Below are positions 2,017 to 45,926 of a stretch of DNA of 48,417 nucleotides, one piece after another. The notes under the pieces were generated by a model, which was not told the origin of the DNA, ran no database searches, and was given only the letters and a program-made list of their open reading frames with translations. Each line of letters starts with the position of its first letter. Position 1 is the first letter of the stretch. A program made the position numbers and the translations under genes. This DNA is from Zygnema cylindricum (taxonomy: Eukaryota > Streptophyta > Zygnematophyceae > Zygnematales > Zygnemataceae): NCBI GenBank assembly GCA_037447655.1, contig JBBHKE010003524.1, positions 1-48,417 of the forward strand. The letters run 5' to 3'.

Positions 2017-2017
2017 G

Positions 2018-6370: not shown

Positions 6371-6383
6371 AAAATAAGGGGAG
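6371..6383 (+). other. Polypurine tract of Copia-1
   Basis: AAAATAAGGGGAG lies between the pol stop and the 3' LTR, as expected for the plus-strand primer of reverse transcription. Confidence 0.8.
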
Positions 6384-7375
6384 TGTTGAAATAAAAGGTA
6401 TTTTCTAGGTTAGTTAAGAGATTTAAATAAGAGCAGGAAAAAGCAGAGGCAGCCTGCTTCTAGCTTCTCTCTAGCCCCCATACTTGTTGTAGTCACTGAA
6501 GGCTGGAGAGGAAGATAGAGCCATGGCTGCCTATGCTCCTTCTAGAGTTCAGAAGGCAGATCCTTGGTAAACTTACCAAAAGGATTGACGGACCCAGGAT
6601 TAGATCCTGGTACCTACCATCCGTCAAAGTAGCCTTTATTCTTACCCTGCAGTCTAAGACCAGTGCTGAAGTATATAGGGTACGATAACAACTTAAAGAT
6701 GACGAAAAAGAGAAGTTCGATTTACTGACAAACGGACCACAATCACACAGACACAGTTAAAAATAGAATTACACAAGAAACGTACTACTTGTATTTTTAA
6801 CGGCTAAAAATTATGGCCGACATTAATCTAACGACGGAGAAAGAAGCCGGCATCGCGGAATGGTTGATTTGGCGGTTTTCGGTCACAACCACAACGGGTG
6901 ACACGTGGCAGCAGGACATTGGATGACGGCATCTCCGGGACATATTATGGCGAACCCGGATATGGTAGGCGTCGTTTTTTTGGCCATATCGTACAATGGC
7001 CGTACAGAAAGTACTTCGGACCAAGTACCTTTCTTTACTGTACACTCAATTGATTGGTTTCGTACATCAGTAGGAGAGGGTTTAGAGAGGGGTTTAGGAC
7101 TTAGAAAATTAGAGATAGCCGCCTCTCTCTCAGAGAGCTTTTGTATAAATGTGTCATCTTTGACCATTGATAATTAACTGCTCAGGGGAGCAAATTCAAG
7201 GATTCTTTTTGTGGCAGACTCAGGGGAGTCACCCTTCCAAGGGGTGCAATTTGGTCAGTCTGTATTCTGTCAGGGTGTCAGCAATATTCAGACAAAGGTT
7301 AAAGAATTGAGGTTATCCTAGAGGCTTCTAACAAGCTGCCTACTCTGAGTACCTTTGGAGGTTTTAAGAGTTGCA
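6384..7375 (+). repeat. 3' LTR of Copia-1
   Basis: 992 bp, matching the 5' LTR without net length change. Differences are scattered substitutions; one cluster is at 6484-6491, where four of eight bases differ. TATAAATG at 7144-7151 corresponds to the 5' TATA box. Confidence 0.95.
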
Positions 7376-7386
7376 TCAACAAGAAG

Positions 7387-11656: not shown

Positions 11657-11794
11657 ATTGTCCCTCTTTTTCCTTTCCCTACTCTCGTATTGTATATTGT
11701 GTTGCTTTATCTACCTCTTCTCCTCCTCGTCTCCCTCCTCTTCTCCTTTGCAGGCAGCAGAAGTGAACTATTAATTACCTCTTTTCAATAGCTA

Positions 11795-12013
11795 GAAATT
11801 CCGCGGCTACTTTTGAATTTTAACCCGTTTCATTAATACCCTCTTGTTAGTTTGACACCGCGTTGTCACCTAAACACACCCATCACTATATCATTTGAAA
11901 TGTAACCCCAAATAGCGCGATTCTTTTGCGGATGTCTACCAAATTAATAACTTTATATTCGTCACCTTTGAATACCCAGTTAGGAACAAGATCGATCCAC
12001 TATTACTGTTACA
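11795..12013 (-). repeat. Truncated 3' LTR of the chromovirus
   Basis: Matches 18602-18820 over about 219 bp, with GAAATTCCGCGGCTAC at one end and ACTGTTACA at the other. The remaining about 746 bp of LTR is absent. Confidence 0.9.
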
Positions 12014-12026
12014 TCATCCCCTCTTT
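12014..12026 (-). other. Polypurine tract of the chromovirus
   Basis: Minus strand AAAGAGGGGATGA directly before the LTR start TGTAAC. Confidence 0.75.
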
Positions 12027-12079
12027 ATTTTTTATTGACCTTAGTTAAAACACATTTCATTTTCATGATCGAACTTCTA

Positions 12080-15000
12080 TATTATTATTCCTCCAATACC
12101 TTTGTAAAAACTCATAATTTTTATCTTCTAAAGTTAACTACTCTTCCGGCCTCCCAAGATAATGCACTTGCCAGAATATAGTGTTACCGACTTTAAACCG
12201 TTGTGCAACCCAATCTATTACCTATTTGTAGACCTCATGTTCTATAATTATTGAGGGATCCAATTCCAATTCTCCTTCAGTTGGTCGAAATTTTGCTCGT
12301 TTGAATTAGCTCATGTGTATCACTGGATGAATTTTTGTTAAAGGCGAAAAGTCCAATTTGGCAGCAATTGACGATGTCATCTCGATTAACAGTAAATGGC
12401 CCAATGTATTTAGGAGCAAATTTCCCCGTTGGATCCGATTGTCCCTCGATCTTGCACATGTAATGAGTAGTTGAAAGCCAAACTTTGTCACCTGTGCTTA
12501 CCACCCAATCACCCCAGTTGCGGTTAGCATTTTATTCTAGTCTTCTTTGCGCCTCCACCAATGCATCCCGGACTGTTTTCCAAACTGTTTGAATGTATGC
12601 CCAAAACTCTATTCTAAAACCCCTATTCTCTTGAGTGACCCCTATTATTAAATCTAATGCATCTCTCGGTTGATATCCGTATGCAATTTCAAACGGTGAT
12701 AATCCTGTACTAGCATGTTTACATGAATTGTATGCAAATTCAATTAATGGCATTTTAGATTCCCATGTGTTTTGAACTCCACTGCAAACAGTCCTAAGCA
12801 TTTTTTCCAGTGTACGGTTCATCGTTTAGGTCTGTCCATTTGTTTGAGGATGATAAGAGGTACTCATTTTTAATTCAATGCCTAAATGTAGCTGTAATTC
12901 TTTCCACAATGCAGACGTAAATTTAGAATCCGTATCATTGAGTATAGACAAGGGAACTCCATGATGTTTGACCACGTTGTCAAAGTATAACTTTGCAATA
13001 TCTACAACGAAATGAGTAGTTTTGCAAGTGATAAAGATTGTTATTTTACTGAACCTATCGACTACCACCATGATATTGTCATTTCTTATAGATGTAGCTG
13101 GCAATCTGACAATAAAATCCATACTGACAGATTCCCATGGTCTTTCAAGAATATCTAAAGTTTTTAAAAGACCTATAGGTTACTAGGTTATTAGGTTTAC
13201 TTTGTTGACAAGGAACACAACTTTCCAAGTGTTTTGACACTTCTTTTTGCCATCCCTGGCCAAAACAACCTATTCTGCAACCGAATAAGAGTTTTATCAC
13301 GACCCTGATGTCCTAAATGCTCATGGGCTTCTTGTTAAAGTTATTTTCTTAGGTCTCCCACTTTAGGGATGCATAATCAGTCCCCTATTCGCAAATATAG
13401 TTATCCATTTTCTATTCTAATTTTTTTGACATGCCTCTCATTCAATGGGTTAGAATTCCCTTCCATAATATTCTTACATATCACAGCAAATTAAGGATCT
13501 TTATCATAACCATTTCTAACAGCATCTAAAAACAATTCATCTCGAAGTACCACACTTATTTCAAAACATCTACTTAAAGGATCTGTGACTACATTTGTCT
13601 TTCCAGGAATATGTTTGACATTAAATTTGAAATATGTCAATTTGTGCATCCACCTAACTTGTCTACCAGTCATAATCTGTGCGTCACTTAATCTTTGTAG
13701 ATAAGAGAGTTCCTTATTATTACACTGAATTATAAATTCTTTAATATGCAAATAACAACGCCATTTCACCAATGCATGAACTATTGCGAGTAATTCTTTT
13801 TCTTGTGCTGGATAGTTCTTTTCAGCATCATTGAATTTTTCGGACTCAAAAGCAATAGGATGAAAATGTTTGCCGACTTTTTGACTTATGACTGCACCTA
13901 GACCTTTATCCAATGCATTAGTAGTGATCAAAACCTCAAATTCCTCTGCAGGATCGAATACACCAGTGTAGGGGCTGAGGTCAACTTCCCTTTTAGTTCA
14001 TCGAAAGCTCTCTCCTGATCGGCTCCCCACACAAACGTCTCGTTCTCCCAAAGTAAATCTGTAAAAGGTGCGGCGATCATACTGAAGTTTCTGATAAATT
14101 TCCTGTAATAAGTGGCCAATCCCAAAAATGATCTAACTTCTATGACATTAATGGGTTGTTTCCAACTTTGGATTGCAGTAATTTTGGATGGGTCTATTTT
14201 AACACCTTCCCCACTATCTATATGTCCCAAAAATAATTGTTCACTTTTAAGGAAACTGGATTTTGACAATTTTCCATAAAGTTTTCTTTCCCTTAACCTT
14301 TCTAACACTTTCCTTAAATAAATTACATGTTGTTTTTAGATTCGATGTAAATTAGAATATTATCTATAAACACCTAAACAAACTCATCTTTATAATCTAA
14401 AAAGGTTTGGTTGATTAATCTTTGATAAGTAGGCGGTGTATTCGTCAAACCAAATGGCATCACTATCCATTCAAAATGACCGACTCTAGTTCTAAAAGCA
14501 GTTTTATCAACATCTTCAGTTCTAATTGGCACCTGATTAAAGCCACTACGTAGATCAATCAAAGAAAATAATTTAGCACCTTGAAACGATCTATCAAATC
14601 AAAAATTAAAGGTAATGGATACTTATCCTTCACCGTAAACTTATTCAGGCTACGATAGTTGACACACATTCTTAACGTTCCGTTCTTTTTTTTGACGAAG
14701 AGAATTGGTACTCCGTACGGTGATTTGCTGGGTTGAATATGTCCTTTCTCCAGAAGCTCTTTGATTTGTTTCTTTAACTCCTCCTGCCCAAAAAAGCTAT
14801 GCTTATAAATTCTTGTGACACGAGGATTACATCCAGGTTCCAAGTTAATAACATGTTCTACATCTCAGGAAGGTGGCCTTCCTAAGGGTAAATCACTTAG
14901 AAAAACATCCCAAAATTCAAAAATCAAATCCTTAACAGCAGCATCAGATGTATTAATGTCAGTTACAAAATCAGATTTTTGTTTTACAAGATTTTTAGTG

Positions 15001-15670
15001 GTGTCTGATTTAGGAATAACATCAATGTTAGTGTTTTCTCCCCCCCTTTCATGAGTAACTTCCTCAATTACTAATAACAAGAAATCATGATTTGTTTTAT
15101 CCTTTAAATGCTTTTTAAATTGTTTAGCAAAAATCAAACCTTCCATTCCCAATTTGGTTATGTTATTTATATGATTTCTGTGCAACTTTTTCGAGGGTAA
15201 TGCTTGCAAAACCTTCTAGCCGTTGTCAAACATCACTCTCAAGGTGTTAGTTTATCAATTAATTTGAGGGTTATGTTCTGTAAACCAATACTTTCCCAGT
15301 ATTAACTCTTCACTACCCAAATTCATTATTTCACACACAACTTTCATTTTATTACTTTGGATATCCACTTATAATGTGTCAGTTTGTAAATCTAATGTGG
15401 ACTTATTACCATTTGCCACCTAAACATGCAAAGGTTTTTCCCTTATGACTGTAGGAATTCTATTTTCCTCTACAAACTTATGTGAAATAAAATTATGTGT
15501 AGCACCCAAATCTACCATAACTCTTAATGGTTTCCCTTCCACTAAAGACTCGAATCTGATCAAACTATGTTTGGTGTCATCGTTACTTAACTGTCCTAAC
15601 ATAGGTCTGTTGTTGAAAGTTTTATCAAAAGGATTGTTCAAATTATTGAGTGTAGTTAGCATCATATAAA
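12080..15670 (-). pseudogene. Chromovirus pol, heavily mutated
   Basis: Reading from high to low coordinates. Protease 15665-15420, with DLGATHNFI where DSGATHNFI is expected, so the Ser after the catalytic Asp is Leu. RT about 14843-14310: [36 protein letters not shown]; the YxDD box is FIDN, preceded by a stop. A WKQP...FLGLATYYRKFI connection domain follows, then RNase H 13931-13491 (TTNALDKGLGAVISQ, YPAQEKELLAIVHAL). Integrase about 13350-12532: HEHLGHQG zinc module, VVVDRFSK, NDTDSKFTS and YHPQTNGQT, then RTLE, so all three acidic positions can be found. C-terminal GPF module 12420-12300 with one frameshift, and a chromodomain relic at 12245-12090 with two stops. Many stops and shifts; no functional protein is expected. 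Confidence 0.9.
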
Positions 15671-15803
15671 TTCAGCTATCCTAGCCTTTCCATTCATTAG
15701 CTTGCCCTCCAAAGTTAACTCCTTAACCTCTGGATTTGGTCGACTCAATTGGGGACTTTCATCTAGTCTTTTCCGTTTCCTAGCTCTTGGGCTTCTTGCT
15801 CAA

Positions 15804-17088
15804 CTAAGTATAATGCAATATCTTCTTGAAGACCTTCATTGACATCAACTGTTTTAAGAGATGAGATCCTTTATCTGTACAGTCCTTAGCGTAATGATCT
15901 GGACCTCCGCATTGAAAACAAGTGACTTTCTTTTTGGGTTTTGTACACTCTCTACTGAAATGACCCTCCTCTCCACAATTATAACAGTTAATTTTCTTCA
16001 ATTGTCCACACAAATGCCCTATGACCTCTTTTCTTACAGATAGTGCATGTAGGAATACTAAGGTTAGGTTTTTGAGCATTAATACTCGGTTTAGGACTCT
16101 TAGTGTATCCCCCTCTATTGTGAAATTTATTTCCTGCATTAATACTTTGTCCACCCCTCTGATTTCCCCTAAAAAGATTTTGCCTATTCACAAGACCCGC
16201 ATTCAGACCCTCTTCCATAAATTCCTCCTCACCCCTCTCTGATACTTCATTCAAATTACCCTTGAGTGATCGAGTATCCCGATTATACCCCAACTGATCC
16301 TCTAATTCCAATGACTTACCTTGTAATTCTATCAAATTAATAAATTTTTGATGTTTCAGTTGTGATTTCAGTATAGGATTCAGATAGTTCAAGAAATGCA
16401 ACTTAGCCATTTCATAAATCAAACCTATAACATGAATGCTAGATGAGTCAAATTCCACAATATAATCTTTCACAGATCCAGTCTGCTTACAGTTAAGCCA
16501 CTTTTCTTCCATTTTGGCTTTATAAGTGATAGACAAGAAATGCGATTTGATCGCAGTCTTAAAAGCTTCCCTATCAGCATTGTCAGGAATCAAATTAGAC
16601 ATCCTCTGAGTGTAATACGAAATCTGAGCATCACCTATCAGACTGCCAACAACAAAGGAAGTGTAATCATCATGATCACAATTCCTAGATTCGAAATAAT
16701 ACTCCATATGAAAAATCCAAGCATCTAACTCATCAATCTTCTCACCATCAAATGATGGTGCTTCACTGATAGACAATTTCAGATCCATTATCTTCTTAGG
16801 TTTATCGTGATCATCATCTCTAAAAGTGGCATTTCTCTTACTACTCTCACCCTTTTGGCCATTAACATCATTTCTGGTTTTTATTAAATTTATTAACTCA
16901 TCCAATTTCTGGTTTGAAACATTTCTATTTTCTTTAACATCTTTCAATTCACTTTTAAACTCAGAAATTGTTTCATCCACAGCAGCAGCATGATTATTCA
17001 ATCTTTTAACCAATTTTACAATACGCATTTTGAACACATTGAAGGCATTTTCCATTTCACGTTTCAATGCAGAATTTGCCATTATCAA
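15804..17088 (-). pseudogene. Chromovirus gag with zinc knuckles
   Basis: Starts MIMANSALKREMENAF at 17088 and keeps a 366-codon open frame to 15988, with a coiled-coil-like Lys/Glu-rich N-terminus and a retrotransposon gag core (FDGEKIDELDAWIFHMEYYF). It then breaks in the first zinc knuckle (CTICKKRGHR) near 16022. The shifted frame resumes with CGQLKK and two intact CX2CX4HX4C knuckles, CYNCGEEGHFSREC and CFQCGGPDHYAKDC (about 15985-15880). Gag packages the element RNA; the knuckles bind nucleic acid. One frameshift separates core and knuckles, so this copy is probably dead. It is the best-preserved part of the element. Confidence 0.9.
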
Positions 17089-17855
17089 ACCCTAAAATCA
17101 AGTAATAAGAAAGGTAGAGTATAATTATCCAAAAGAGTTTGCAGCAGATTTGAAGTCCTCACATTTCTCCAATCAAAGCCTTCCCTGCCTTAACAAATCT
17201 TCTGAAGTATATCAAAATCTGAAAATCAAATAAACATTAAAAGTAAATTAGTGAAATTTTAATTTTCTCAATCATTTAAATATTAAGGTAAAAAGTTTCC
17301 CCACATATTTTGCAGCAGCAAAATTCCAGCTCTCAAAGGTAAAATTCAACCACAAATTTTGCATCAGCAAAATTGAAAGCAATCAAAGGTAACAATTTAG
17401 GGTTTGAAAAGTTTTAAGTCATTTCTAGACTCATTTGCTCTCAAAGAAGTAAAGTGCTCCACTTTCCTCCTCCACCATTAGCAAATTCCCCATTTCCCAC
17501 TACATCTGGATCTTTTGTTCTCTAATTCTCACATTCTCACCTTTCATGGCTTCAAGCCCTCCCTCTACACATGAATCATTGCTAAGAGAAGGCAAGTTTG
17601 TTTGGCCTCTACGCAATTGGAGTGAGTTTCAGCGGTGGTTACACTACCCACCCCGACTTAGTTCTTAGGACTTGAACATGCCCCACGTCTAACTAGCGGT
17701 CGCTGGCAGTGTGATCACTCAGTTTCCCTCCAATCCCCTACCACTTCACATTGTGGTTCTACCGACACAGGTTAGAGCACCCTCAGCAGTCACGGCAGTC
17801 GATTTGCGGGTGAGAAAACTTCTCCCTGGTTTCTATCCAAAGCTTTGATACCAAA
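17089..17855 (-). other. Untranslated leader and primer-binding site of the chromovirus
   Basis: About 750 bp between gag and the 5' LTR with no convincing frame. Minus strand TGGTATCAAAGC at 17853-17842 matches 11 of 12 bases of the plant initiator tRNA-Met primer site and is 2 bp from the LTR end. Confidence 0.8.
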
Positions 17856-18820
17856 TGTAATAGGATCTTTTACCTCTCAGAAAATCCCATTACGACAACC
17901 CATTTGAACCACACATTCCACACATTGGAAAATACACATCCACATTGGAAAGAACTCACATAAGGATAAACTTTAAATTAGAAGAAGCTTTTGTCCACAT
18001 AACATTAGCTCGGTCTCTTGCCCTCCTAGCTCAACCCTTCTCATTAAAGTATTTTCCTCTACTCTCCCCTCTTAAATATTCTATCTCTTAACTAAAACAC
18101 TACTTAGTTTGTAAGAGATTTCAATGCCAAAATGTCAATGCTCCAATTAGGTTTTAATCGCTCAGGACCACGATCAGTAAGCATTTCCGCTAACTTTTTC
18201 TAAGGAAAAAGCTGTTTACTTTTCTCTTAGACTTCACTATTTATCCATCATCGCCCTTGACTAGCCAGGCTAGAGTCAACGCTCCGTTGAACAGGTTTTA
18301 CCTGGGTCAATCATTGATCAACAAGGACTCCAACTGACCAATGCAAAAGCGTGCGAAATCTCTCACTAACTACGCAGAATTTTCTAACCAATCAAATGCT
18401 ACATTTTACTATGTAACATTTACGTGCAAAAGTGCGCGCGAATTGAAACGCGACTTCGCACGTTTGCGCGTCATAAATTTTACACGCGAAACTACCTTCG
18501 AAATTTACAAATTCTAACTTATGACGTTTCATACTAAAAATCGTACGAAACGAACCATCATGTGTACTAAATGGCTATTAGTAATTTATAGACGTATGCT
18601 TGAAATTCCGCGGCTACTTTTGACCCTTAACCTGTTTCAATAATACCCACTTGTTAGTTTGACCCCGCGCTGTCACCTAATCACACCAATCACTATATCT
18701 TTTGAAATAGAACTCCAAATCGCGCGATTCTTTCGCGGAAGTCTACCAAATTAATAACTTTATATTCGTAACCCTTGAATACCCATTTACGAACAAGATC
18801 GATCCATTATTACTGTTACA
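17856..18820 (-). repeat. 5' LTR of the chromovirus
   Basis: 965 bp; minus-strand TGTAAC start and TTACA end. AT-rich ATATTTAAGAG near 18070 (minus) is a possible TATA region. Its first 219 bp recur at 11795-12013. Confidence 0.88.
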
Positions 18821-18823
18821 CCC

Positions 18824-19940
18824 CTCTTCTTCCTCTTCCCTGATAATAATTTAGATCGGGCGTTTTCAGTGTTGTCGCATTGAGGGAACCGGTCGGTTGG
18901 GTTCCCATTGATGAGCTCGGGCAATTCTCCTCGGTCGATTTAAGGAATGAAATGATTGAGTCCAAGGTGTTCGAAGCCCTCGATAAGAGAATGTCCCTTA
19001 AGTGTGTCATTTTTGCCGGTAAGGCATGGGTGAAGACCGATGCCTTATCATTCTCTTCAATAAATTTCCCCATATTTGCGAGTTGCTCAATAATAATATT
19101 AAATCTCTTTGCAGCCTCATCGATCAATTCATTTGGTTTCACTTTGAAGGATGTATAATCAGAATAAATATGTTGCCCCTTGTTTTGAAGACTCTTCTCA
19201 AAATGATTTTCAAGGGCCACCCAACAATCATGGGCGAATCTTCAGGTAAGAAAAAATCGTGAATGGAAGTGCTACATGATTGAAATAAGCCGCGACGGCG
19301 AAAAGATTTTTCTTCGTCCACACCCGATAAGCTCTCCGATCTGAGGTAGGCATCTTGTCCACCCTTTTTACCACCTTCCAAAGGCGTTTTAATTTAAATT
19401 GGCCTTTGATAAATTTCTTCCACGATTGATAATCCGTCCCATCGAAGATGACATTTTTTCCGGACATAGATTCAACTTGCTCGTCCCCTTCACTCCAATC
19501 ATCAAGATCGGAATCGTCATCGATGGGAAGTTTCCCCTTTCGAATTGATTCCCTCATCTCCTCCTCATCTCCTTCCGTATCAACGACGCTTTGTGTCGGA
19601 ATGCGATCTCCGAAAAATAGAGGTCTCGTGACACGGTTCGTCTCCGAGATCCGTTGATCAACATATCGGAAAATTCCATCCATCAATTTTTGAAGACGAT
19701 CTTCCATCGGGTCATCTCCCTCCTTCTTTTTCCCCTCATTCTCCTTCTTTTGTCCGAACGGATCAATTGGAACGGCTTCCTCAAAAGTTTTGCCGGTGAA
19801 AGCAAATGGAGTTTCTACTTCCGGATTCGACGATGATTCGGATTCCGTTGGATCTCAGGATTCGGATCCGGAGGTCGAGGAATTAACGTAGAAGAAGAAG
19901 GCATCATAAGAGAAGGGGTATTTTTCTTCTTTCTCCCCAT
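18824..19940 (-). pseudogene. Copia-3 gag, disrupted
   Basis: A possible start MGRKKKNTPSLMMP is at 19940. The frame shifts and is open again from 19707 (MEDRLQKLMDGIFRYVDQ), through an acidic DDDSDLDDWSEGDE stretch and a gag-type IFDGTDYQSWKKFIKGQF block, to a stop at 19228. It continues at 19220 in another frame with a copia gag core (KPNELIDEAAKRFNIIIEQL, LSRASNTLDSIISFL) and ends in YYQGRGRRGV, where the chromovirus is inserted. The zinc knuckle that normally follows is absent. Assignment to copia gag is by block pattern, not by a catalytic motif. Confidence 0.75.
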
Positions 19941-23467: not shown

Positions 23468-25898
23468 ACACTCAAGAAAAGATATTTAACTTCCTTCAAT
23501 TCCATATATATTCAACAAAAGCGAGTATCTAGCCATTGCAAAAAAATTATATTTGCGAATTACCCTCTCTTCCTTTTTTTCGCGTCCATTTGAAAACAAA
23601 TCCGCAACAATGACATGCCACCTTTTAAAAAGTTTCAACAAATTACGCAAAAACAAAGTGTTACCTTCTTTTCCATTTTTCTAGGAACTGTAAGCGCAAT
23701 TGGAGATGGACAAAAAGGGGCGGATTTATCTCCCTGATCTCCCTTTCTCCCAATTTAAAAGTTTCCAACCCCTCCGTCCATTGCCTACACTAACAAAACA
23801 AATACCGCATTCGCAATCTAAGACGAAATGCAAAAAACCATATCAGTAAACTTAAAATAACGATTTGGACGGAAAACATGCTCTAAATGTGAGCCAATAT
23901 TCCTTCTTTCAATAACCCAAAGTTCGGACAGTGAACCTTACACTAGGCTACACCATGGATCGTTATTAGTGTTAAATAAATGTACAGCGTGGGGGTTATT
24001 TTCATGCAACCAATTCCAATTTGATTGATGTGGACGGTTTTCAACCACTTACTAGATTAGCGTTGAGAACAAAACAACTAGTTTTACTAACATGAGTTTA
24101 TGTGCAAAGGCCTAAAATAACTGGGACCTAATATTGTAATTTGGCTAACAAGGAATCAGATTCAGCTAAGTACAGTAATCAAAGAAACAATAATGATCAG
24201 CTAAGTATATAACTCCATTTTCTATTTTTTTTTGAAAATTCATGTTTTTTTGCCTTAAGAGGGAGGGCTTTTGTCCACATCTCCACTCTCTAGTGCTCCA
24301 ACTGTCTCTGTGTGCTGAGCTGCAATCTTCCCCTGCTGTGCAAACAATTTTTCCCCTTTTATTAGTTCGTATTTCAACGATTGGTTTTTTCCCCTTTTAT
24401 TAGTTCGTATTTCAACGATTGGTTTTCTTTCATCAATAAATCCTGCCAAACCCTCCATGGACACTAGATTTGGCAGTACAACAACATCTTTTTTCTATTC
24501 TTTCAAACTTTTTACGATTTTGCCCTCTTCCTCCCTATTCACTTTTTCGTCTGCATCCTTCTCTCCCTCCAATCATCTTGTCGTTCCCTCGCGTTTTCAC
24601 TCCCCGCCGATGGACTTTCTGAACAACTTGTCATCAGCTTCTAACTGAAAAGGTCCAAATTTCCTTCTAATGACTCCTATTTTTTCTCTCCTCTTCTTAC
24701 TTTTCCTCTCCTCCAACCAGTTCCTCTTGTTTACTTCCTGTTTTTTCTCTACATAGCTCTAAACCCGTCGACGTCTTGTTGCAACAATTAATGAATCGAT
24801 CACAGTCATAGTCAACCGATCGATTGACTGATCCATCAAACCATCAAACCAACAATCAACCAATGAACAAATGAATAAATCTATCAATCAATAAAGAAAC
24901 AAGCAAATAGAAAACAACTGTATCAGCGAAGGCACACTTTCGGAGCAATTACATGGATGTGTTTTGTTGCCCGAACATTCTACCAACCTTCAAAACCTGA
25001 CAATGAATCCGATCAGATTTTCTTTGAGCCATTCTATATGATGGAATTCAATTTTGGCCAGCTGTCCGCAGCATGGGTAGCCATGCATCACTGCGTCTCT
25101 CTACACTCACAAATTTAGAAAAAAAAAATCTTACATTAATTATTCAACACCTTGAAAATTCTAATGCACAATAAGCATACCGAAAATTGCACTAGATTAA
25201 ACCTTCCAACAATGAACATTTGAACCGTTCGCATACATACTCCTCAATAACCAATACACTTGGAAAAAACCAGACTCCCTTCAGACTATTTCTATAACAT
25301 CGATTCTAAACGCTTTTGCATTGTATCCAATAACGAAAATGTTGGTCACTATCCTTTTCCTTCATATGACGATTTATGCAACTCCTTCGATTTTGTCATA
25401 GTTTCTTCACCTTCCAGATCCCCTTTAGACGAGATAAATAATCCTTGATTTGTCTCAGTTTACAGCCCCTATAGAATACACAAAACTCCTAATATTTCTC
25501 CTTTTGAACGTTTTTCTATCCCCGCTCACATTTTCCAAAAACACATCAAGATACCATTTGCAATACGAATCAATATAGATTGACCCAACAGAACCCAGGT
25601 TTCCAACCACATCCAGGAACAATTCATGCAGGAAGAAAAATGCAAAAAACAGTTGATAAACAATTTGCACATCATGAAAATTTGTACATTAAATGCAAAA
25701 TGTCTCGATCATAGAAAAAGCAAGCAAATCCAAAATTTCCTTTTAGGCCTAATTTACAAATTACCTCCCAGCTACCCAACAAAAACTCTAATCTGCCTGA
25801 TAAAAGCTACTTCACAACCTGGTGTGACAAAATGAAAACCTTCCTAATCGCAATTTTCTCATCTTTTTCCTTTTCTCACACTCGCCCACTCTCACTCG
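23468..25898. other. Non-coding part of duplication copy A
   Basis: Downstream of the minus-strand PstS-like pseudogene; corresponds to about 39605-42051. A direct repeat of about 40 bp (CCCCTTTTATTAGTTCGTAT...) occurs at 24354-24423. Pyrimidine-rich stretches at 24480-24740 give serine/phenylalanine-rich frames that differ freely between copies. No gene is called, apart from the weak candidate at 25260-25448. Confidence 0.6.
25260..25448 (+). other. Small open frame, alike in both duplication copies
   Basis: About 60 codons containing LPSDYFYNIDSKR, VSNNENVGH and DLCNSFDFVIVS. The copy B frame at 41450-41641 reads LPLDYFYKINSKR, VSHNENVRH and DLWNSFESVIVS. The two align over about 170 bp without an indel, although flanks have many. 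Amino-acid changes are frequent, however, so selection is unproven. The product is not recognised. It could be an exon, or simply a stretch that escaped indels. Confidence 0.25.
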
Positions 25899-26361
25899 CT
25901 ATGAAATCTTCTTGGCCCACGCGATACCAGCTGCAGTGTACTGGCTCGTAAGAAGATCGAACAGGAATAAGGCGCCCAATCCCTGCGCGGTGAAAGACAT
26001 GGTGTAAAGCACAAATTTCTTGATTGTTGCCCCGCCTTTCAGTTTGGCCAATTCGAAGACAAGGACGCAAATGGGGTAAGTCACAAGTCTAGAGGCATCG
26101 ATAAGGTTAACGTTGTTCCATGGCAAGTTCAAAGCCCTCACAGTTCGGGGAAGGGCGGCGTAAATATCTCCACGGTCGGTGGTTCCGGCAACAGCTACGA
26201 AGTTTCCACCCAAGTACTTGATAGCCACGGGGAAAATCTTGTAGGTGATAGCTCGGATTCCAGTCTGCAAGTAGTCGAAGGCGTTGGGGGTTGCGGTGAG
26301 GTACGCTCCGATTCCATTCGATCCTGTCTTGTATACAACCGACCTAGAAATACCACTTTTC

Positions 26362-26608
26362 TGTTGAGGATCGGCGATATTCTACATATCGCATGGGCGC
26401 CAAAGTGAAAACTTTGGTTAAATGGCCAAGCCGGGGATCGAACCCGTGACCTTGTGTTAGCCGTACACGAGCTCTACCAACTGAGCTACCCGGCCGATGT
26501 GCATGCAAGCGCCTGAAACCGAATTTACGGCAATTAACGGCGCATTGGCGTAACCAGCATATACTGCGATACACACGTGTGGAGTCCGAAGTGGACATTC
26601 CTCCAACA
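26362..26608 (-). repeat. TRIM-A LTR copy 1
   Basis: 247 bp. On the minus strand: TGTTGGAGGAATG, then about 110 bp, the tRNA-like unit, a CCAAAG-TTTTCA-CTTTGG hairpin and a GCGATATG...CATCG-type end ...GATCCTCAACA. Confidence 0.9.
26424..26495 (-). tRNA. tRNA-like unit, TRIM-A LTR copy 1
   Basis: 72 nt cloverleaf: acceptor GGCCGGG/CTTGGCC (two G-T pairs), D stem GCTC/GAGC with loop AGTTGGTA, anticodon stem CGTGT/ACACA (outer pair mismatched), loop ACGGCTA, T loop TTCGATC. Read by position, the anticodon is GGC (Ala), but base 33 is C. The T stem begins with A instead of C in this copy (ACGGG/CCCGG). A box TAGCTCAGTTGGTAGAGC and B box GGTTCGATCCC are near perfect. Confidence 0.6.
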
Positions 26609-26669
26609 CGCCCCCTCACGATGTACTCCATCTCGTGTGGCTTGCCAACGCCCCCTTGCTTTGATACCA
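26609..26669 (-). other. TRIM-A internal domain 1
   Basis: 61 bp; minus strand TGGTATCAAAGCAAGGGGG at the start and CGTGAGGGGGCG at the end. It is almost nothing but primer-binding site and purine tract. Confidence 0.85.
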
Positions 26670-26916
26670 TGTTGTGTTTCGGCGATATTCTACATATCGC
26701 ATGGGCGCCAAAGTGAAAACTTTGGTTAAATGGCCAAGCCGGGGATCGAACCCGGGACCTTGTGTTAGCCATACACGAGCTCTACCAACTGAGCTACCCG
26801 GCCGATGTGCATGCAAGCGCCTGAAACCGATTTTACGGCAATTAACGGCGCACTAGCGTAACCAGCATATACTGCGATACACACGTGTGGAGTCCGAAGT
26901 GGACATTCCTCCAACA
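26670..26916 (-). repeat. TRIM-A LTR copy 2 (middle)
   Basis: 247 bp, nearly identical to copy 1 but with a variant terminus (CGAAACACAACA on the minus strand in place of CGATCCTCAACA). Confidence 0.9.
26732..26803 (-). tRNA. tRNA-like unit, TRIM-A LTR copy 2
   Basis: The most tRNA-like of the set: T stem CCGGG/CCCGG fully paired, anticodon loop ATGGCTA with the canonical T at position 33 and anticodon GGC (Ala). The alanine identity pair G3-T70 is not present (C3-G70), so charging with alanine is not expected. Confidence 0.65.
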
Positions 26917-26977
26917 CGCCCCCTCACGATGTACTCCATCTCGTGTGGCTTGCCAACGCCCCCTTGCTTTGATACCA
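26917..26977 (-). other. TRIM-A internal domain 2
   Basis: 61 bp, same primer-binding site and purine tract as internal domain 1. Confidence 0.85.
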
Positions 26978-27213
26978 TGTTGAGGATCGGCGATATTCTA
27001 CATATCGCATGGGCGCCAAAGTGAAAACTTTGGTTAAATGGCCAAGCCGGGGATCGAACCCGGGACCTTGTGTTAGCCGTACACGAGCTCTACCAACTGA
27101 GCTACCCGGCCGATCGCCTGAAACCGAATTTACGGCAATTAACGGCGCACTGGCGTAACCAGCATATACTCCGATACACACGTGTGGAGTCCGAAGTGGA
27201 CATTCCTCCAACA
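26978..27213 (-). repeat. TRIM-A LTR copy 3
   Basis: 236 bp; differs from the others mainly by loss of 11 bp (TGCATGCACAT region) just upstream of the tRNA-like unit. Confidence 0.9.
27040..27111 (-). tRNA. tRNA-like unit, TRIM-A LTR copy 3
   Basis: 72 nt, as copy 1 but with the paired T stem CCGGG/CCCGG. Anticodon loop ACGGCTA. A and B boxes intact. Confidence 0.6.
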
Positions 27214-27545
27214 TTTTCCCACTCCAGGAAGCGGAGCTGCATAGGGGGCTCTTGACGGAGGCCGGCCTTGACGGAGGCCGGCCAGAAACAGTACTTTGCG
27301 AGCCATCGGCAGATGACTTCGGTGGTTTCGGAGCCGTCCGCTCGAGCCAAGGAAATGACGTTTCCAGAAAGGCCGGCCTTAATCGAGGACCGGAGACGGT
27401 GGAGGTGTAGATTTTGGCGACTTGGTCGCTGGTCTTACGGATTCCAGAAGCCTTCTTGGTGAAGAAAGAGTACGTGATGCCCGTGAAGGGAACGCTAATC
27501 TTGGCAGCTCCTCCGGCCTCCAAAAGTTACGTGAAGAGAAGTCAA

Positions 27546-32135: not shown

Positions 32136-32493
32136 GACAGTGTGATTGTTGGTTGCCTGATCAGCGTCCAGCGAAGCGACAATGTCGTCGCTAATTTAGA
32201 ACTTTTGAATTTTGATTAAGTTGTCGTCGTATTTTTAATTATTTATTAAATGTTTTAATATTATTTGATTTTCGTTTTTAGTATGAAGTCAACTTCGGTC
32301 AACGCATTTTAAAATATTTGGTATTTGTTTCATGTGCATATTAGTTATTTTTTTGGCGTTTCATGCGTGCGTTTTATGCGCATGAGAACTCTATGGTTTG
32401 TACCTTTCGGGGGATACCAAACGGCGGTATTTTACTACGAACATGATGTAAGCTTTTTTCGCTGTGAGAACCTAAAAGTCAAGCGTTTGCTTA

Positions 32494-33455
32494 GGCCTGT
32501 TCTCCATTAGGCGGTCCCGGTAAACATGCGGATACGTCTATTTTTTAAGTTTACTGGCACTGCCTTCCATTATGTCGTGCCAGTTAACATCGTTTCTCAA
32601 TTATGATTGGCGTCATGTAGGTTAGAGTCAAGATTTTAAAAATCTGCCAAATATCTTCAAAGGAAAGTCAGAACCAAAATGTGGACCACCTAAAAATTTT
32701 GAAAATCTGCAAAATATCTTCAACGTAAAGTTAGAACGAAATATTTGTAACAGCGTAATGTACTTAAAGTATACCAACGTAATGTACTTAAAGTATAGTA
32801 CGAGAATGCTCCAACGTACTATTTGTACCTTCATCAGGGTTTGTAACAAACCCTAACTTTTTCACTGCCATGGCTTTTACTTGAACGCCTGCCTCCAACG
32901 GAAAGCCTCTGCCGTATTATGTGACATATGTCACATTTTTACGTGTGTTAATAGAGACTCTTGCCTCCAAAGGAAAGCCTCTGCCGTATTATGTGACATC
33001 TGTCACATTTTTTACGTGTGTTAATAGAGCGAAAGCGCGGCAAACTGTGGACAGTGGATAGCGTGTACGACGTGTTCGGTTCTCATCGCCTATTCGTGTT
33101 GGCGATTTTTTTTATCTTCACTTGAAAATCGCGCACATCATCCAGGGTGTACATCGCGCACATCGTCCAGTTTGAAGGGACTCTCTTCAAACTGGACGAT
33201 GTGCGATCGTCCAGTAAGGAGATACTCTCCTCGGCGAGGAGAGTATCTTCACACTGGACGACGTGCGCAATTGCTTCGCGAATCTAGAAAAGCTAAAAAT
33301 CCAACGGTCGATAATTACGCCTATAATGTTGGAGCGATCCGGTAAACATATTTCGAAATGTTTCGTCTGACAAAAAAAAAAATTTGTACGAATCTGTACG
33401 AAAGTGTACGGCATCCAGTAAACAACACAACTTTTCCTCTAATGGAAGTTCACCC
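32494..33455 (+). mobile_element. Harbinger-like MITE, copy 1
   Basis: 962 bp between TTA duplicates (32491-32493 and 33456-33458). Inverted ends: left GGCCTGTTCTCCATTAGGCG, right (complement) GGGTGAACTTCCATTAGAGG. A 3-bp TTA/TAA duplication and G-rich ends fit PIF/Harbinger MITEs. Inside are a perfect 20-bp hairpin (33158-33177 with 33185-33204, loop 7) and a near-perfect 29-bp palindrome centred on CTCCTCGGCGAGGAG (33222-33250). No transposase. Related copies are at 44490 and 45232. Confidence 0.85.
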
Positions 33456-33728
33456 TTAAATAAGTTGGAGCTTTTTCCCAGTGTTGCGTATCGAATCGGA
33501 GCGGCCAGTTTTTTTTTTTTTGGAACCCGCAAAGCAGAGGTCGCAATCGGGTACCCGAATCCGTACCCGATCCGTACCCGACCGCCCGGGTCGGATGCGG
33601 AACGGATTCGAGTGCAAAATTTTGTGGGGCCGGCCGGATTAGGCCGGGTGATACAGAAAAAAAAAAGTAGGGTACGACCGGGTTAGCAAAAACCTAAAAA
33701 AATTGAAGGTTTCTTAGGTACGTTCCAC

Positions 33729-34341
33729 TTACACGATTCACACTAGAATTGGATGATAAATGAGATGAGGAAACGAATAATCACGTACCATTCATTCCGC
33801 AAAAAAACAAAACAGAGGCGCCAAACAGGTCGACCGCTCGGCTGTCAACCTTTTAGGAGCGTAGCGAAGGACAAAATATATGATTTGGAGTGTAGCGACG
33901 GACAAAACATACGGTCGTGCGTCAAAACTTGACAGCTGTGGTAAATCATCTTCCTTTCCGGAAAACCTTTTCGAAATGCAGAAATGCGACTTTGAAAAAA
34001 CAGGAAGTCGTATCCCGAATGAATGATCCGTACTGTAACGATTTTTTTTTAAATGCTAACCAATTATCAAATAGCCAATCAAAATCATCTAAAATATAAC
34101 TTAAAAAAATGTAAACTTAAAACTTCTTTGGAACTTTGACGAAGCGTCCGCCCCCCTTCTTAACGATGGTTTGGTACGCACGGATTTGAGTCATCGGCGA
34201 CTAATCGTACGACAACATGAATCACATCGCGACGTTTTTATTGACGTGAGATGGCGTCAATGGCTATTCACATCCTAACAAAAAAAAGGACATTCATTTC
34301 CTCATCTCATTTCATCATCCATTTATAGTGTGATCGTGCAA
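33729..34341. mobile_element. MITE with long inverted ends, copy 1
   Basis: 613 bp. Left end TTACACGATTCACACTAG, right complement TTGCACGATCACACTAT, followed by an extended GGATGATRAATGAGATGA repeat on both sides. Interior matches 46012-46456, including GGCGCCAAACAGG and GACCGCTCGGCTGTCAACC. No gene. The target duplicate is unclear in this copy. Confidence 0.75.
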
Positions 34342-36363: not shown

Positions 36364-36586
36364 TGTTAAGATTCTTAGAATCGGGGGATAGAATGGACGA
36401 TCCCAATAAAGGGATTGATGGAGCCGGCCAGGATTTGAACCTGGGACCTTTCACTTAAGCTGCGAACGCACTACCACTGTGCCACCAGCTCACATGTTAT
36501 GCTGGTGGGTCCAATTTTATATAGTTTTTAGTGTGGTTTACACCACAATTCCGGGTACTGAGCGGTACAGTTTTTGTACGTCAACA
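36364..36586 (-). repeat. TRIM-B LTR copy 1
   Basis: 223 bp. Order on the minus strand: TGTTGAC, TATA box, tRNA-like unit, AATCCC-TTTATT-GGGATC hairpin, CTTAACA end. Confidence 0.92.
36421..36491 (-). tRNA. tRNA-like unit, TRIM-B LTR copy 1
   Basis: 71 nt cloverleaf: acceptor GAGCTGG/CCGGCTC, D stem GCAC/GTGC, anticodon stem TTCGC/GTGAA fully paired (one G-T), T stem CCAGG/CCTGG with loop TTCAAAT. Loop AGCTTAA gives anticodon CTT (Lys), but position 33 is G. A box TGGCACAGTGGTAGTGCG, B box GGTTCAAATCC. No TTTT terminator directly follows. Confidence 0.6.
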
Positions 36587-36652
36587 CCCCCCCTCGAGAG
36601 GTAGCCGGTCATAATAGTCCATGTAAACCTGGTCCCCCTGGCTTTGATACCA
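36587..36652 (-). other. TRIM-B internal domain
   Basis: 66 bp containing only the primer-binding site, a short spacer and the G-rich purine tract. Confidence 0.88.
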
Positions 36653-36874
36653 TGTTAAGATTCCTAGAATCGGGGGATAGAATGGACGATCCCAATAAAG
36701 GGATTGATGAGCCGGCCAGGATTTGAACCTGGGACCTTTCACTTAAGCTGCGAACGCACTACCACTGTGCCACCAGCTCACATGTTATGCTGGTGGGTCC
36801 AATTTTATATAGGTTTTAGTGTGGTTTACACCACAATTCCGGGTACTGAGCGGTACAGTTTTTGTACGTCAACA
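36653..36874 (-). repeat. TRIM-B LTR copy 2
   Basis: 222 bp, one base shorter than copy 1 net; differences include CTAGGAATC against CTAAGAATC. Confidence 0.92.
36709..36779 (-). tRNA. tRNA-like unit, TRIM-B LTR copy 2
   Basis: Identical in the 71-nt unit to copy 1: same stems, same AGCTTAA loop (CTT by position), intact A and B boxes. Confidence 0.6.
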
Positions 36875-39530: not shown

Positions 39531-42500
39531 TTAACGTCCATCAGCCTCCTAGGAAAAAGGAACATCTTTCACGTCAATTTTTACATGCAACTTCCATTGT
39601 GTCAGACAAACTAAAGAAAGATATCTAACATCCCCAAATGCCATAGACATTCAACAAAAGCGAGTATTTTGCGACTTGAAGAAATTTACTCACATTCCAT
39701 ATTTTTGCAAAAACGAAAAAAATGATATTGTGATTTACCCTCTCTTCCCTTCTTTGCATTGATTTGAAAACAAATCCGCAACAATGACACGCCAACTTTT
39801 TAATGGCTTCAATACATTACACAGAAACAAAGTGTGGAGAAGGGTTTGGTATCTTCCTTTCCATTTTTCTTGGAAATGTCGGTGTAATTGGAGACGGACA
39901 AGAAGGGGCGGATTTGTCTCCCAAATCTCCCTTGTTTCCAACGCCTCCGTCCAATGCCTACACTGACAAACCAAATACCGCATTCGCAATCTACGACAAA
40001 ATGCAAAAAACCACGACAGTCATATCACTAAACTTGGCAAAACGTTTTGGATGGAAATACCCGAATTGCGCACAGTGGCCCTTATACTAGGGTACACCAT
40101 GAATCGCTTTTAGTGTTAAGAAATGTACAGCGTGCGATTTATTTTCATACAAACAATTTTAATTTGACTAATGTAGACGGTTTTCAACCACTTACCAAAT
40201 AAGCGTTGGGAAAAAACAATTAGTATTGCTAATAGGAGTGTATGTTTCAGGACCAAAAAAATGACTGGCACTAAATTTATGTTATTTCTGCTAACATCGA
40301 CTCAGAACCAGCTAAGAACAGAAATTAAGTAAATAAATAAGTTCAGCTCAGGACTTGACTCGAAAAAATAAAAAATCTTGAAATACATGTTCTTTGGCCT
40401 TAAGAGTTGGGGCTTTTGTTAGCATCTCCACTCTCTTTGAAAGTGCTGCAATTGTCTCCGTTTATTGAGCTCCCATTCTTTGCCTGGCATGCAAATAGTT
40501 ATTCCCCTTTCATTAGTTCTTGTTTTAACGATTGGTTTTCTTTCATCAATTAATTCTGCCAAACCTCCATGGACACTAGATTTGCCATTACAAAAACACC
40601 GTTATTCTTTTTTTTCAAATTTTCTACTATTTTCCCCCTTTCCTTCCTATCAGCTTTTTCTTCTACCTCCTTCTCTCCCTCCAATCATCATGTCGTTCCC
40701 TTAAATTTTAACTCCCCACCGTTGGACTTTCTGCACACTTGTCTCCAGCTTCTAACTGAACAGGTACCAGGTTAATAGCTGTCCACTTACAAGGTTAATA
40801 GCTTTCAACTCACAGGTGAGCTAAAAACTCACATTACCACCTTTTCCACTCCCCCTCCATTTTTTCCTCCTCCAGATTTCCTTCTAATGACTCCTACTTT
40901 TTCTCTCTTTTTCTTGCTTTTCCTCTTCTCCAACCAGTTCCTCTTGTTTACTTTCCTGTTTTTTCTCTACATCGGTCTGAACCCGTCGACGTCTTGTCGC
41001 AACAATTAATGAATCGGTCACAGTCACAGTCAATCGATCGATTCACTGATCCATCCAACAATCAGCCAATGAAAAATCAATAAATTAATCAATCAATAAA
41101 CAAACAAATAAATAGATAACAACCGTGCCAACTGAGGCACACACTTTCGGAGCAATGACATGGAGGTGTTTTGTTGTCCAAACGTTCTCCCAACCTTCAC
41201 AACCGTGATAAAGATTCTGACAAATTTTTTTCTAGGCAATTCCATATGATAGAAGAAAATTTTTCCCGTTAACCCACAACAGGTTAGCCATGCATCACTG
41301 CATCTCTCCACTCACAAATATAGAAAAACATAAATTATCACATTTTCTATTCAACACTCTGAACATTCCAATATACATACAGCAGATTACACAAGATTAA
41401 ACCTTCCAACTATGGATAATTTCGAACCATTTGTAGAAATATTCCTTAATTGAAAATATTATTGGAAAAATCCAAACTTCCTCTGGACTATTTCTACAAA
41501 ATCAACTCCAAACGTACAGGTATTGTATCTCATAACGAAAATGTTCGTCACAAATATTTTCCTTCATTTAACGATTTGTGGAATTCCTTCGAATCTGTCA
41601 TAGTTTCTACACCTTCCATATCCCCCATGGACGAAAAGTAAAAGACTTGGCTTGTCACAGCTGACAGCCCTTGTGAAATACTCAAAAGTTGGAACATTCC
41701 TGCTTTTGTACGTTTTTCTATCCTTACTCAAAGTGTCAACAAAATACATCAATATACGATTTGCATTACTGAATCAACGTACATTAAGCCGACAAAACCC
41801 AGAATTCCAAACACATCCGGGAACCAATCATTGAGAAAGAGCGAAGGAGAAAAAGGCAAAAAACACTAATTGTCCAAGCAAATCCAAAATGGTTTTTAGG
41901 CCCTATTCATCCATTACCTCCCAGCGACCAAATAAAAGCTCTAAACTGCCTCATAAAAGCTACTTCACCACCTCCAGTGACAAAATGAAAATCTTACTAT
42001 TTGCAATTTTCACACCCTTTTACTTTTCTCACGCTCTCCCACTTTCACTCTCTATCTGATCTTGTTGGCCCAGAAGATACCAGTTGCGATGAGCTGGCTC
42101 GGAAGAGGATCAAATAGGAATTCAGGGGCCAATGCCTGCGCGGAAGTAGACAAGGTGTAAAGTACGAATTTCTTGACTGTTGCCCCGCCATTCAGTTTGG
42201 CGAATTCCAAGACGAGGGTGCAAATGGGGTAAGTCGATGGTCTGGGGACATAGACAGTTCGGGGAAGGGCAGCGTAAATATCTCCACAGTCGGTGGTTCC
42301 GGCAGCGGTCACGAATTTTCCAGCCAAGTTCCTGATGGCCGTGGGGAAAAGTTTGTAGGTCGTAACTCCGATTCCAGTCTGCAAGTAGCCGAGAGCGTTG
42401 GGGGTCGCGGCGAGGTACTCCCCAATTCCACTCGATCCTGACCTGTATACAACCGACCTAGAAATGCCGCTTTTCCCACTCCAGGAAGCAGAGCCGCAGG

Positions 42501-42760
42501 CGGGGCTTTTGACAGAGGCAGGCCAGAAAGAGGACTTTGCGAGCCATCGGCAGACCACTTCGGTGGTTCCGGAGCCGTCGGATCGAGCCACGGGAATGAC
42601 GTTTCCAGAGAGACCGGCCTTAATCGCGGACCAGGAGACGGTGGAGGTGTAGATTTTGGCGACTTGGTCGGTGGTCAAACGGAGTCCGGAAGCCTTCTTG
42701 GTGAAGAAAGAGTACGTGGCGACAGTGAAGGGAACGCTGAGCTTGGTTTTTCCTCCGGCC
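39530..42760. repeat. Segmental duplication, copy B
   Basis: Direct repeat of 22950-27519 without the MITE and TRIM insertions. The MITE empty site is CATTGTGTCAGACAAACT near 39590-39607, and the TRIM empty site is CCGCTTTTCCCACTCC near 42467-42482. It includes exon 2 of the PstS-like gene up to 42760 and about 2.5 kb of downstream DNA. Confidence 0.9.
41450..41641 (+). other. Small open frame, counterpart of 25260-25448
   Basis: 63 codons with LPLDYFYKINSKR and DLWNSFESVIVS. See the copy A entry; coding status unproven. It lies about 410 bp downstream of the PstS-like stop, on the opposite strand. Confidence 0.25.
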
Positions 42761-42919
42761 TGGACGTCCGATGTCATACAGCCCGTCGAGACGGACTCGT
42801 TGTTCCGAGACATGCCCAGGATAAATCCGGCGATTCCGGCAGAGGATCCCACAGAGGCGTATGACCCGTACAGAGCCTTGTTGCTCAGGCAGAGCTGCCC
42901 GACATACTGTAGATACCAG

Positions 42920-44489: not shown

Positions 44490-45228
44490 GGGTAGAATTC
44501 CATTAGGCGGTCCCAGTAAATGTACGGAAAATTCTACTGACAGCGTTTACTAGAAGACTATTCCATTTTGTCGGGTCAGTAACAAACCTTCCTCAATTAT
44601 GATTGGCGCCACATTGGTTACAGTCCAGATTTGAAAATCTTAAAGAAAATCTTCAAACGGAAAGTTAGAACGAAATCTGTACGACCGGAAGTAGTTAATG
44701 ATTCGTAAGTAAAGTTTGCTGCCAGATTTTTGATTTTGAAATCGGAAATCAAAATTTCGAAACGGAATGGCAAAAAGACGCGCCAAACTTTGAATGTCGG
44801 TGGATGTCAGACGGAGCGTGCCAAAATATTTTCGGCTCACCTGCATCCAGCATGGCAAGCGACACATGGACCGTACGACGTAGGTACATGGCCTATACGA
44901 CGTGTAGACCTGTGATCGCTTATTTAAAGCAGATATTCTTTTGTTTTTTCAAGTGTACCAATGGTACACGTCTAGTATCGTACAACTCTCCTCGCGAGGA
45001 GAGTATCGTCACACTGGATGATGTGCGCGATTGCTTCGCGGATCTGAAAAAGTGGAATATCCAACGGCCAGGAATTACGCCTACATCATTAGAGCTTCCC
45101 GAGAACTTTCCAGTAACTATACTTCGTCTGACAAAAAAAAAATTTAAGGTAGGGCGTGGTACGAATCTGTACGAACTTGTACGGCGTTTAGTAACGAACC
45201 ACACTTTTCGTCTAATGGAATTCTACCC
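44490..45228 (+). mobile_element. Harbinger-like MITE, copy 2
   Basis: 739 bp with ends GGGTAGAATTCCATTAGGCG and complement GGGTAGAATTCCATTAGACG, flanked by TAA at 44487-44489 and 45229-45231. Same interior blocks as 32494-33455, including the CTCCTCGCGAGGAG palindrome near 45000. An open frame at 44804-45367 spans this element and its inverted neighbour; it is not taken as a gene. Confidence 0.88.
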
Positions 45229-45231
45229 TAA

Positions 45232-45926
45232 GGGTGAACTTCCATTGGAGGAAAAGTGGGGTTGTTTACTGGACGCCGTACGATTTCTTAGATTCGTACC
45301 ATTTTTTTTTGTCAGACGAAACATGACGAAACATGTCTACTGGATGGCTCCAATATTATTGGCGTAAGTATCGACCGTTGGATATTTCACTTTTTTACAT
45401 TCGCGAGGCAATCACGCACATCGTCCAGTTTGAAGAGACTCTCCTCGGCGAGGAGAGTTTCTTCACACTAGTCGCGTACCATTGGTACACATGAAAAGTA
45501 AAAAAAAATCCACCACGAACAGGCAATGAGAATCGAGCACGTCGTACACGCCATGTGCCTTCCGCCACAATGTATGATGGTCGACCGAAAATATCTTCGC
45601 ACGCTCCTTCTGACATCCGCTGACCTTAAAAGTTTGCGGCGCCTTTTCTTTTTCGAAATTTTGATTTTCAATTTCAAAATTATAATCTGGTCGCAACATT
45701 TTCGTACGAATCATCAACTTCCTCCGCCTGTCCAAAAATATTATGTAAAGATTTTCAGCTTGAAGAATATTTCTAGATTTTAAGAATCTGAAAATTAACC
45801 TACGTGGCGCCAATCATAATCGAGGATTGATGTCTACTGGCACAACATAGTGAAAGGCTGTGCCAGTAAACACTAGAAATAGACGTATCCGCATGTTTAT
45901 TGGGGCCGCCTAATGGAGAACATGCC
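45232..45926 (-). mobile_element. Harbinger-like MITE, copy 3, inverted against copy 2
   Basis: 695 bp, opposite orientation, starting GGGTGAACTTCCATTGGAGG and ending (complement) GGCATGTTCTCCATTAGGCG, with TAA at 45927-45929. It shares the TAA at 45229-45231 with copy 2, so one element inserted into the target duplicate of the other. Together they form a 1.44-kb imperfect palindrome centred at 45230. Confidence 0.88.

Follow-up and report, generated by a model that had tools for sequence, protein, structure and literature searches.

Helenus-type retrotransposons with a tRNA-like unit in their LTRs in the streptophyte alga Zygnema cylindricum

The window, i.e. the whole 48,417-bp contig that was analysed out of a 352.8-Mb assembly of Zygnema cylindricum, contains members of three families (F1, F2 and F3) of non-coding LTR retrotransposons of about 510–555 bp, with a tRNA-derived unit in their LTRs. 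By layout and features as published, F1–F3 belong to the Helenus kind of TRIMs (Kojima 2024, PMC10886601). The explanation that we consider probable, taken as a whole, combines Helenus-type TRIMs, a start by RNA polymerase III (Pol III) at the unit of the 5′ LTR, a Copia element as helper, and growth of the F1 array at one insertion.

The F1 array occupies positions 26,362–27,213 on the minus strand in the order LTR–61–LTR–61–LTR, with one tRNA-like unit per LTR and TTTTC duplicates outside (26,357–26,361 and 27,214–27,218, as read on the plus strand). The 5′ LTR (26,978–27,213) measures 236 bp and has an 11-bp deletion with respect to the middle (26,670–26,916) and 3′ (26,362–26,608) LTRs, both of 247 bp. 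The two internal domains (26,917–26,977 and 26,609–26,669) are identical; each is 61 bp long, starts with the primer-binding site (PBS) TGGTATCAAAGC and ends with the polypurine tract (PPT) GTGAGGGGGCG. The coordinates bear out the initial annotation, which had described three LTRs of 236–247 bp, two 61-bp internal domains, a PBS, a GAGGGGG tract and a TTTTC duplicate. Between the outer LTRs there are 3 differing positions in addition to the 11-bp deletion; the middle LTR departs from these two at 7 and 8 positions. A T4 run is present in all three.

ARAGORN detects a tRNA in the 5′ (27,039–27,111), middle (26,731–26,803) and 3′ (26,423–26,495) LTRs, all on the minus strand, and the corresponding Rfam RF00005 scores are 49.4, 53.7 and 42.4 bits, above the gathering score of 29 bits. 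The cloverleaf proposed for every LTR is present, with a length of 73 nt in the element sense instead of the 72 nt first given. No tRNA was called by ARAGORN in 3000 dinucleotide-shuffled LTRs (1000 each from F1, F2 and F3) or in 20 shuffled windows. The A and B boxes previously noted in the F1 LTRs were found again, and are kept in most F1 copies of the genome.

The array lies in a segment (23,540–27,519) that has a relative within the window at 39,716–42,761, with 73–83% identity. The alignments end exactly at the edges of the F1 array and share a 5-base overlap on the relative, where a lone TTTTC (42,471–42,475) marks the uninterrupted paralogous site. The relative is the empty site of the F1 array, with one TTTTC, and integration with a 5-bp duplication is thereby demonstrated. 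Because the intact relative carries a PstS-like (PBP_like_2) ORF, the F1 array breaks up a paralogous copy of this gene region. The PstS-like gene region is present in the window as two diverged copies (23,540–27,519 and 39,716–42,761), one of them broken by the array; protein identities among the matches listed reach 32% for the PstS-like ORF and 40% for the Copia ORF. The ARAGORN calls and the Rfam scores above threshold in F1 and F2 would also be expected from a tandem cluster of true tRNA genes of the host, but this origin is exceedingly improbable, given the presence of LTR ends, PBS, PPT, TSDs and an empty site, and an anticodon loop that differs among the units of the F1 window array. 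In addition, alanine tRNAs of eukaryotes do not usually have the anticodon GGC.

The initial annotation identified the F1 array and missed two further elements of the window, at 36,364–36,874 and at 797–1024 plus 7376–7381. The former is a full F2 element of 511 bp on the minus strand, with GAATT on both sides. Its 5′ LTR (36,653–36,874; 222 bp) contains a tRNA-like unit at 36,708–36,779 with TATATAAAA upstream of it, its 66-bp internal domain (36,587–36,652) carries the PBS TGGTATCAAAGC and the PPT CTCGAGGGGGGG, and its 3′ LTR (36,364–36,586; 223 bp) contains a second unit at 36,420–36,491. The two LTRs differ by 2 substitutions and 1 indel, and their units score 56.3 and 53.4 bits in Rfam. 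In the sense strand of this F2 copy, T runs stay below four.

The latter is a solo LTR of F3 on the plus strand, whose main part (797–1024) and remaining end (7376–7381) lie on either side of a nested Copia element; AGAAG is found at 792–796 and 7382–7386. ARAGORN places a tRNA-like unit at 902–975, for which the Rfam search gave no tRNA match even at an E value of 10; other F3 loci, such as L049, L050 and L065, do receive ARAGORN tRNA calls. The Rfam matches above gathering in the window are five, all of them tRNA. The nested Copia (1025–7375; 6.35 kb) is inserted within the terminal bases of the F3 solo LTR, with the target duplicates TCAAA/TCAAC. It has LTRs of about 990 bp that are 95% identical, and an internal region starting with GGTTATTGGCCCA, which we take to resemble an anticodon-loop primer site. 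At the contig start, positions 2–439 contain an RVT_1 domain, probably of a non-LTR element, and an inverted repeat of about 1.4 kb (44,499–45,917), 70% identical to its own reverse complement, has related pieces within 32,491–34,333.

The three families have in common the PBS, a G-rich PPT, TG...CA ends and the tRNA-like unit, the F3 PBS being known from copies such as L050. Comparison of F1 with F2 and F3 gives the highest similarity in the tRNA-like unit (z over shuffles of 4.0 and 3.3, respectively), followed by U3 (2.0 and 2.0) and U5 (1.0 and 1.7). F2 and F3 are related along the full LTR, with z values over shuffles of 3.9 for U3, 10.1 for the tRNA-like unit and 3.3 for U5.

A genome search with the F1 LTR produced 54 match rows from 40 scored out of 306 candidates, so that the F1 copies analysed represent those closest to the query; 40 stretches around the listed places were examined, of which L046–L048 re-cover earlier ones. 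Checked in this way, as the initial annotation had suggested, the genome yielded repeated copies with recurring LTR ends and TSDs. Among F1-only chains with both outer ends, cut or foreign-end loci being excluded (L015, L016, L030, L035, L036, L038 and L041 among them), an exact 5-bp TSD at unshifted ends is found in 16 of 26, window array included, and is missing in 10, two of which (L018 and L019) are near-duplicates. Two-LTR F1 units (L010, L014 and L026) measure 553–555 bp. For the seven F2-ended chains, an exact TSD was detected by script in three (L052, L063 and the window element) and by eye in L074 and L075, which lie on the same contig; the exact F2 duplicates are GAATT, GCATT and AGTTC. 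Those of F3 are AGAAG at the window solo LTR and GAGTC, seen by eye, flanking L050. In L018 and L019, an F1 LTR is followed by the inverted first 36 bp of that LTR, with CTACC on either side and a CACACGTGTG palindrome close to the join; this pair of loci has the appearance of alleles or of a duplication.

The pattern of the LTR/PBS junction, AACATGGTATCAAAGC, has 110 matches in the genome versus 1 for a reversed control, and the genome copy numbers of F2 and F3 are known through this PBS pattern only. Of the first 30 PBS loci in contig order, 25 carry F1, F2 or F3 LTR or internal sequence, with an ARAGORN tRNA in 16 of these 25. A PBS variant, TGGTATCAGAGC, occurs in L022, L024 and L027. A search for the F1 tRNA-like unit pattern gave 0 matches in a collection of viral contigs that may omit records of the host genome.

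These copies also bear on the origin of the unit. The tRNA-like units could be separate SINEs inserted in some LTRs of an ordinary TRIM, and a SINE insertion has been proposed as the remote origin of such elements in the available text of Kojima 2024 (PMC10886601). For the families described here we judge this highly improbable: none of the F1 LTR matches examined has the unit cleanly missing, the matches instead spanning the unit or being cut or interrupted (L015, L027 and L038), and no direct repeat is visible by eye around the unit in the window LTRs. The initial annotation had named two outcomes that would speak against its reading, namely a unit that is a separate SINE with its own target duplicate, present in the LTR of only a few elements, and LTR boundaries that are not reproduced elsewhere. 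LTR boundaries and TSDs recur in other copies of the genome, as do the A and B boxes in most F1 copies; thus, neither outcome was seen.

The unit-bearing TRIMs had been put forward as a tRNA counterpart of Cassandra. This was the right idea, with element, TSD, PBS, PPT and A and B boxes all confirmed; the accompanying view that no family of this layout was known was wrong: Helenus has it (Kojima 2024, PMC10886601). In the parts of that paper available to us, Helenus elements are TRIMs with tRNA-derived LTR sequence from fungi, animals and Selaginella, with a published length range of 311–1263 bp. The Zygnema elements agree with them in length, in LTR sequence that is tRNA-derived (by ARAGORN only for the F3 window unit) and contains A and B boxes, and in a short internal domain with PBS and PPT. 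They further agree in the 5-bp TSD, as in the fungal and plant groups, in the occurrence of solo LTRs and of several families per genome, in a link to Copia, as in fungi, through a candidate autonomous LTR partner with a similar PBS, and in tandem arrays, which are reported for LTR-11_DR. Selaginella moellendorffii, the single plant host in the published list, has Helenus with an LTR of 120 bp and an internal domain of 85 bp (PMC10886601), whereas in the present host, with three families or more, the LTRs measure about 222–247 bp. Mosaic arrays across families are not mentioned in the portions of Kojima 2024 (PMC10886601) at hand. Among the papers listed in a search of freely accessible journal articles, there was no Helenus report besides Kojima 2024.

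Similar small RNA genes in LTRs are known from Cassandra, a TRIM that, in the text available (PMC7215508), likewise combines a Pol III-type small RNA gene per LTR with tandem LTR/internal arrays. Cassandra LTRs contain 5S rRNA in place of the tRNA-like unit, and its array units are almost identical, whereas some arrays in Zygnema join different families. A survey of plant TRIMs that includes algae and Selaginella (Gao et al. 2016, PMC4717578) describes comparable small non-coding LTR elements, and its main text, in the form available, is without the words tRNA and polymerase III. In the window, no 5S rRNA match above Rfam gathering was obtained in the LTRs, and the Rfam searches of the window gave no hammerhead ribozyme. 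The latter in an LTR is the hallmark of Retrozyme. The layout is one already described; what the present elements add is another green-lineage host, a candidate Copia helper, mosaics across families and terminators that differ between families.

Transcription signals were counted in LTR copies with a query coverage of 95% or more, each set of identical copies entering once (47 F1, 23 F2 and 14 F3). Both A and B boxes are present in 40/47 F1, 13/23 F2 and 7/14 F3 copies. A T4 run follows the B box in 46/47 F1, 5/23 F2 and 13/14 F3 copies, and TATAWA precedes the A box in 0/47, 17/23 and 2/14, respectively. Judged by these motifs, Pol III is a plausible polymerase for F1 and F3, and a doubtful one for F2, which may use Pol II in view of its few T4 runs and frequent TATAWA. 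Most likely, Pol III would initiate via the A and B boxes at the tRNA-like unit in the 5′ LTR, and the transcript would cross the internal domain and end at the T4 run just past the unit of the 3′ LTR. With such a start and stop, the repeated R region would correspond to the tRNA-like unit plus a short trailer. As T4 is present in all three F1 window LTRs, a transcript starting in the 5′ LTR would have to pass one. A functional Pol III promoter is left unproven for Helenus too in the available text of Kojima 2024 (PMC10886601).

Two hairpins follow the tRNA-like unit in each of the three window families. Within the last 34 nt, a best perfect stem of 5 pairs or more is present in 44/47 F1, 17/23 F2 and 13/14 F3 copies, two of the 13 F3 stems being a different hairpin. 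The named stems are reached by 0/5000 F1, 84/5000 F2 and 117/5000 F3 shuffles, which makes the F2 and F3 hairpins weak taken singly, and stems of at least 4 and 5 occur in 162/5000, 264/5000 and 373/5000 shuffles, respectively. The post-tRNA hairpins are partly within chance. In the F3 tail used for these shuffles, the two terminal letters came from an incorrect position, which leaves the stems unaffected. These hairpins, together with the TATATAAAA shortly before the unit of the F2 window copy and the F2 counts of TATAWA and T4, would suit a full-length RNA made by Pol II, in which the tRNA-like unit would either be carried along as a passenger or define the RNA ends as a processing signal (RNase P/Z). 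We consider this possible, if on the unlikely side: T4 after the B box is kept in nearly all F1 and F3 copies, where TATAWA is absent or rare, and tRNA genes of plants, too, may have TATA-like motifs upstream.

Tandem arrays also occur outside the window, and several combine families (mosaic loci on C327, C1450, C535, C1404 and C2522). L020, L022 and L024 consist of an F1 LTR, an F2 internal domain and an F2 LTR, with inexact flanks (AGATT and AGATG) at L024. L027 and L039 show the order hybrid LTR, F2 internal, F2 LTR, F1 internal, F1 LTR. The hybrid LTR (L027:55–295 and L039:667–907) is F1 up to the B-box region and F2 beyond, and only here does the switch fall inside the tRNA-like unit. The left flank of L027 and L039 is common and the right flank is different; based on the shared left flank, the two represent one event. 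L039 has GGGAG on both sides, within a GGGAG-rich stretch, and L027 has no matching flank. In the mosaics, the internal domain belongs to the downstream LTR wherever an LTR follows. PBS pairs spaced 286–306 bp are also found on C1377, C2373, C2498 and C2535.

Strand transfer confined to R was rejected as the source of the mosaics, since the junctions of L020, L022 and L024, as well as the F2 LTR/F1 internal junction of L027/L039, are located at the LTR/PBS border. LTR recombination or template switching has been proposed for Cassandra arrays (Kalendar et al., in the text available as PMC7215508), and either fits the arrays described here. The shared TSD of the window array speaks for an array that either grew at one insertion or arrived as a single unit; most likely, the three-LTR array would have grown at one insertion, through unequal LTR exchange or template switching. 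Near-duplicate pairs of loci (L018/L019, L027/L039 and L030/L035), and the agreement of L027 and L039 at the left flank and not at the right, raise the question of whether the window array and the mosaics are assembly joins or haplotype duplicates. This is very unlikely, as the same TSD borders the window array left and right, its empty site lies on the contig that carries it, and separate mosaics occur (L020, L022, L024 and L039). A more elaborate proposal, which we hold to be rather improbable, is that the tRNA-like unit marks the R region for moves of reverse transcriptase between TRIM-family RNAs. The families would then form one recombining pool of modules, each an internal domain with its downstream LTR, and F2 would have shifted to Pol II or to tRNA-processing cuts for its RNA ends while keeping the unit.

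The remaining five of the 30 PBS loci (L056, L062, L067, L069 and L073), extended to 8 kb as L083, L079, L080, L081 and L082, have long LTR pairs in all five cases, and ARAGORN found no tRNA over the 8 kb of any of them. Pfam assigns L083 (two frames) and L081 (one frame) to Copia; immediately downstream of the PBS, L079, L080 and L082 look similar to L081 by eye. The two frames of L083 contain Copia gag, integrase and RVT_2 domains. Its LTRs are about 95% identical and begin with TGTTGAG, its TSD is CATAC and its PPT is AAGAGGGGG. Because PBS, PPT, LTR ends and TSD length are shared with the TRIMs, this Copia is named as their likely helper, a candidate partner proposed from its cis signals. 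The PBS match is given by construction, as these loci were found through the PBS search, and PBS identity alone is not decisive, since the internal region of the window Copia does not begin with the TRIM PBS and a Gypsy-like element has it. The autonomous Copia would supply gag, reverse transcriptase and integrase, and priming would use initiator tRNA-Met at TGGTATCAAAGC, plus the GAGGGGG tract. The Gypsy-like element is degraded (11,791–18,828), with matches to gag and RNase H, an integrase match below threshold and the PBS TGGTATCAAAGC near 17,853.

The host belongs to the streptophyte side of the green lineage, outside the published Helenus plant, Selaginella. Its manually joined HSP90 exons match Viridiplantae, all organism names given among the 120 matches listed being those of green plants or algae. 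In an HSP90 tree of 41 rows, the host forms a pair with a transcript (97% over 662 columns) and groups with Closterium, mosses and seed plants, separated from prasinophytes with 99/98 support; no core chlorophyte was recognised among the rows. A clade of 14 rows with seed plants, Diphasiastrum and Physcomitrium excludes the host, but it excludes Sphagnum as well, and the tree has no resolved backbone. A COX1 search gave two weak fragments. The presence of Helenus in a second green-lineage host suggests that the combination of tRNA and LTR is older there, or has arisen more often, than one family implied. For these TRIMs, a Copia element whose cis signals match can be named as candidate partner, and Cassandra is still without one, according to the literature available. 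Automatic tRNA counts may be inflated by copies of such elements, the same warning being given for rust fungi in the available text of Kojima 2024 (PMC10886601). With terminators and TATA motifs unevenly distributed among the families, one genome could serve to test the tRNA-like unit as promoter, processing signal or passenger.
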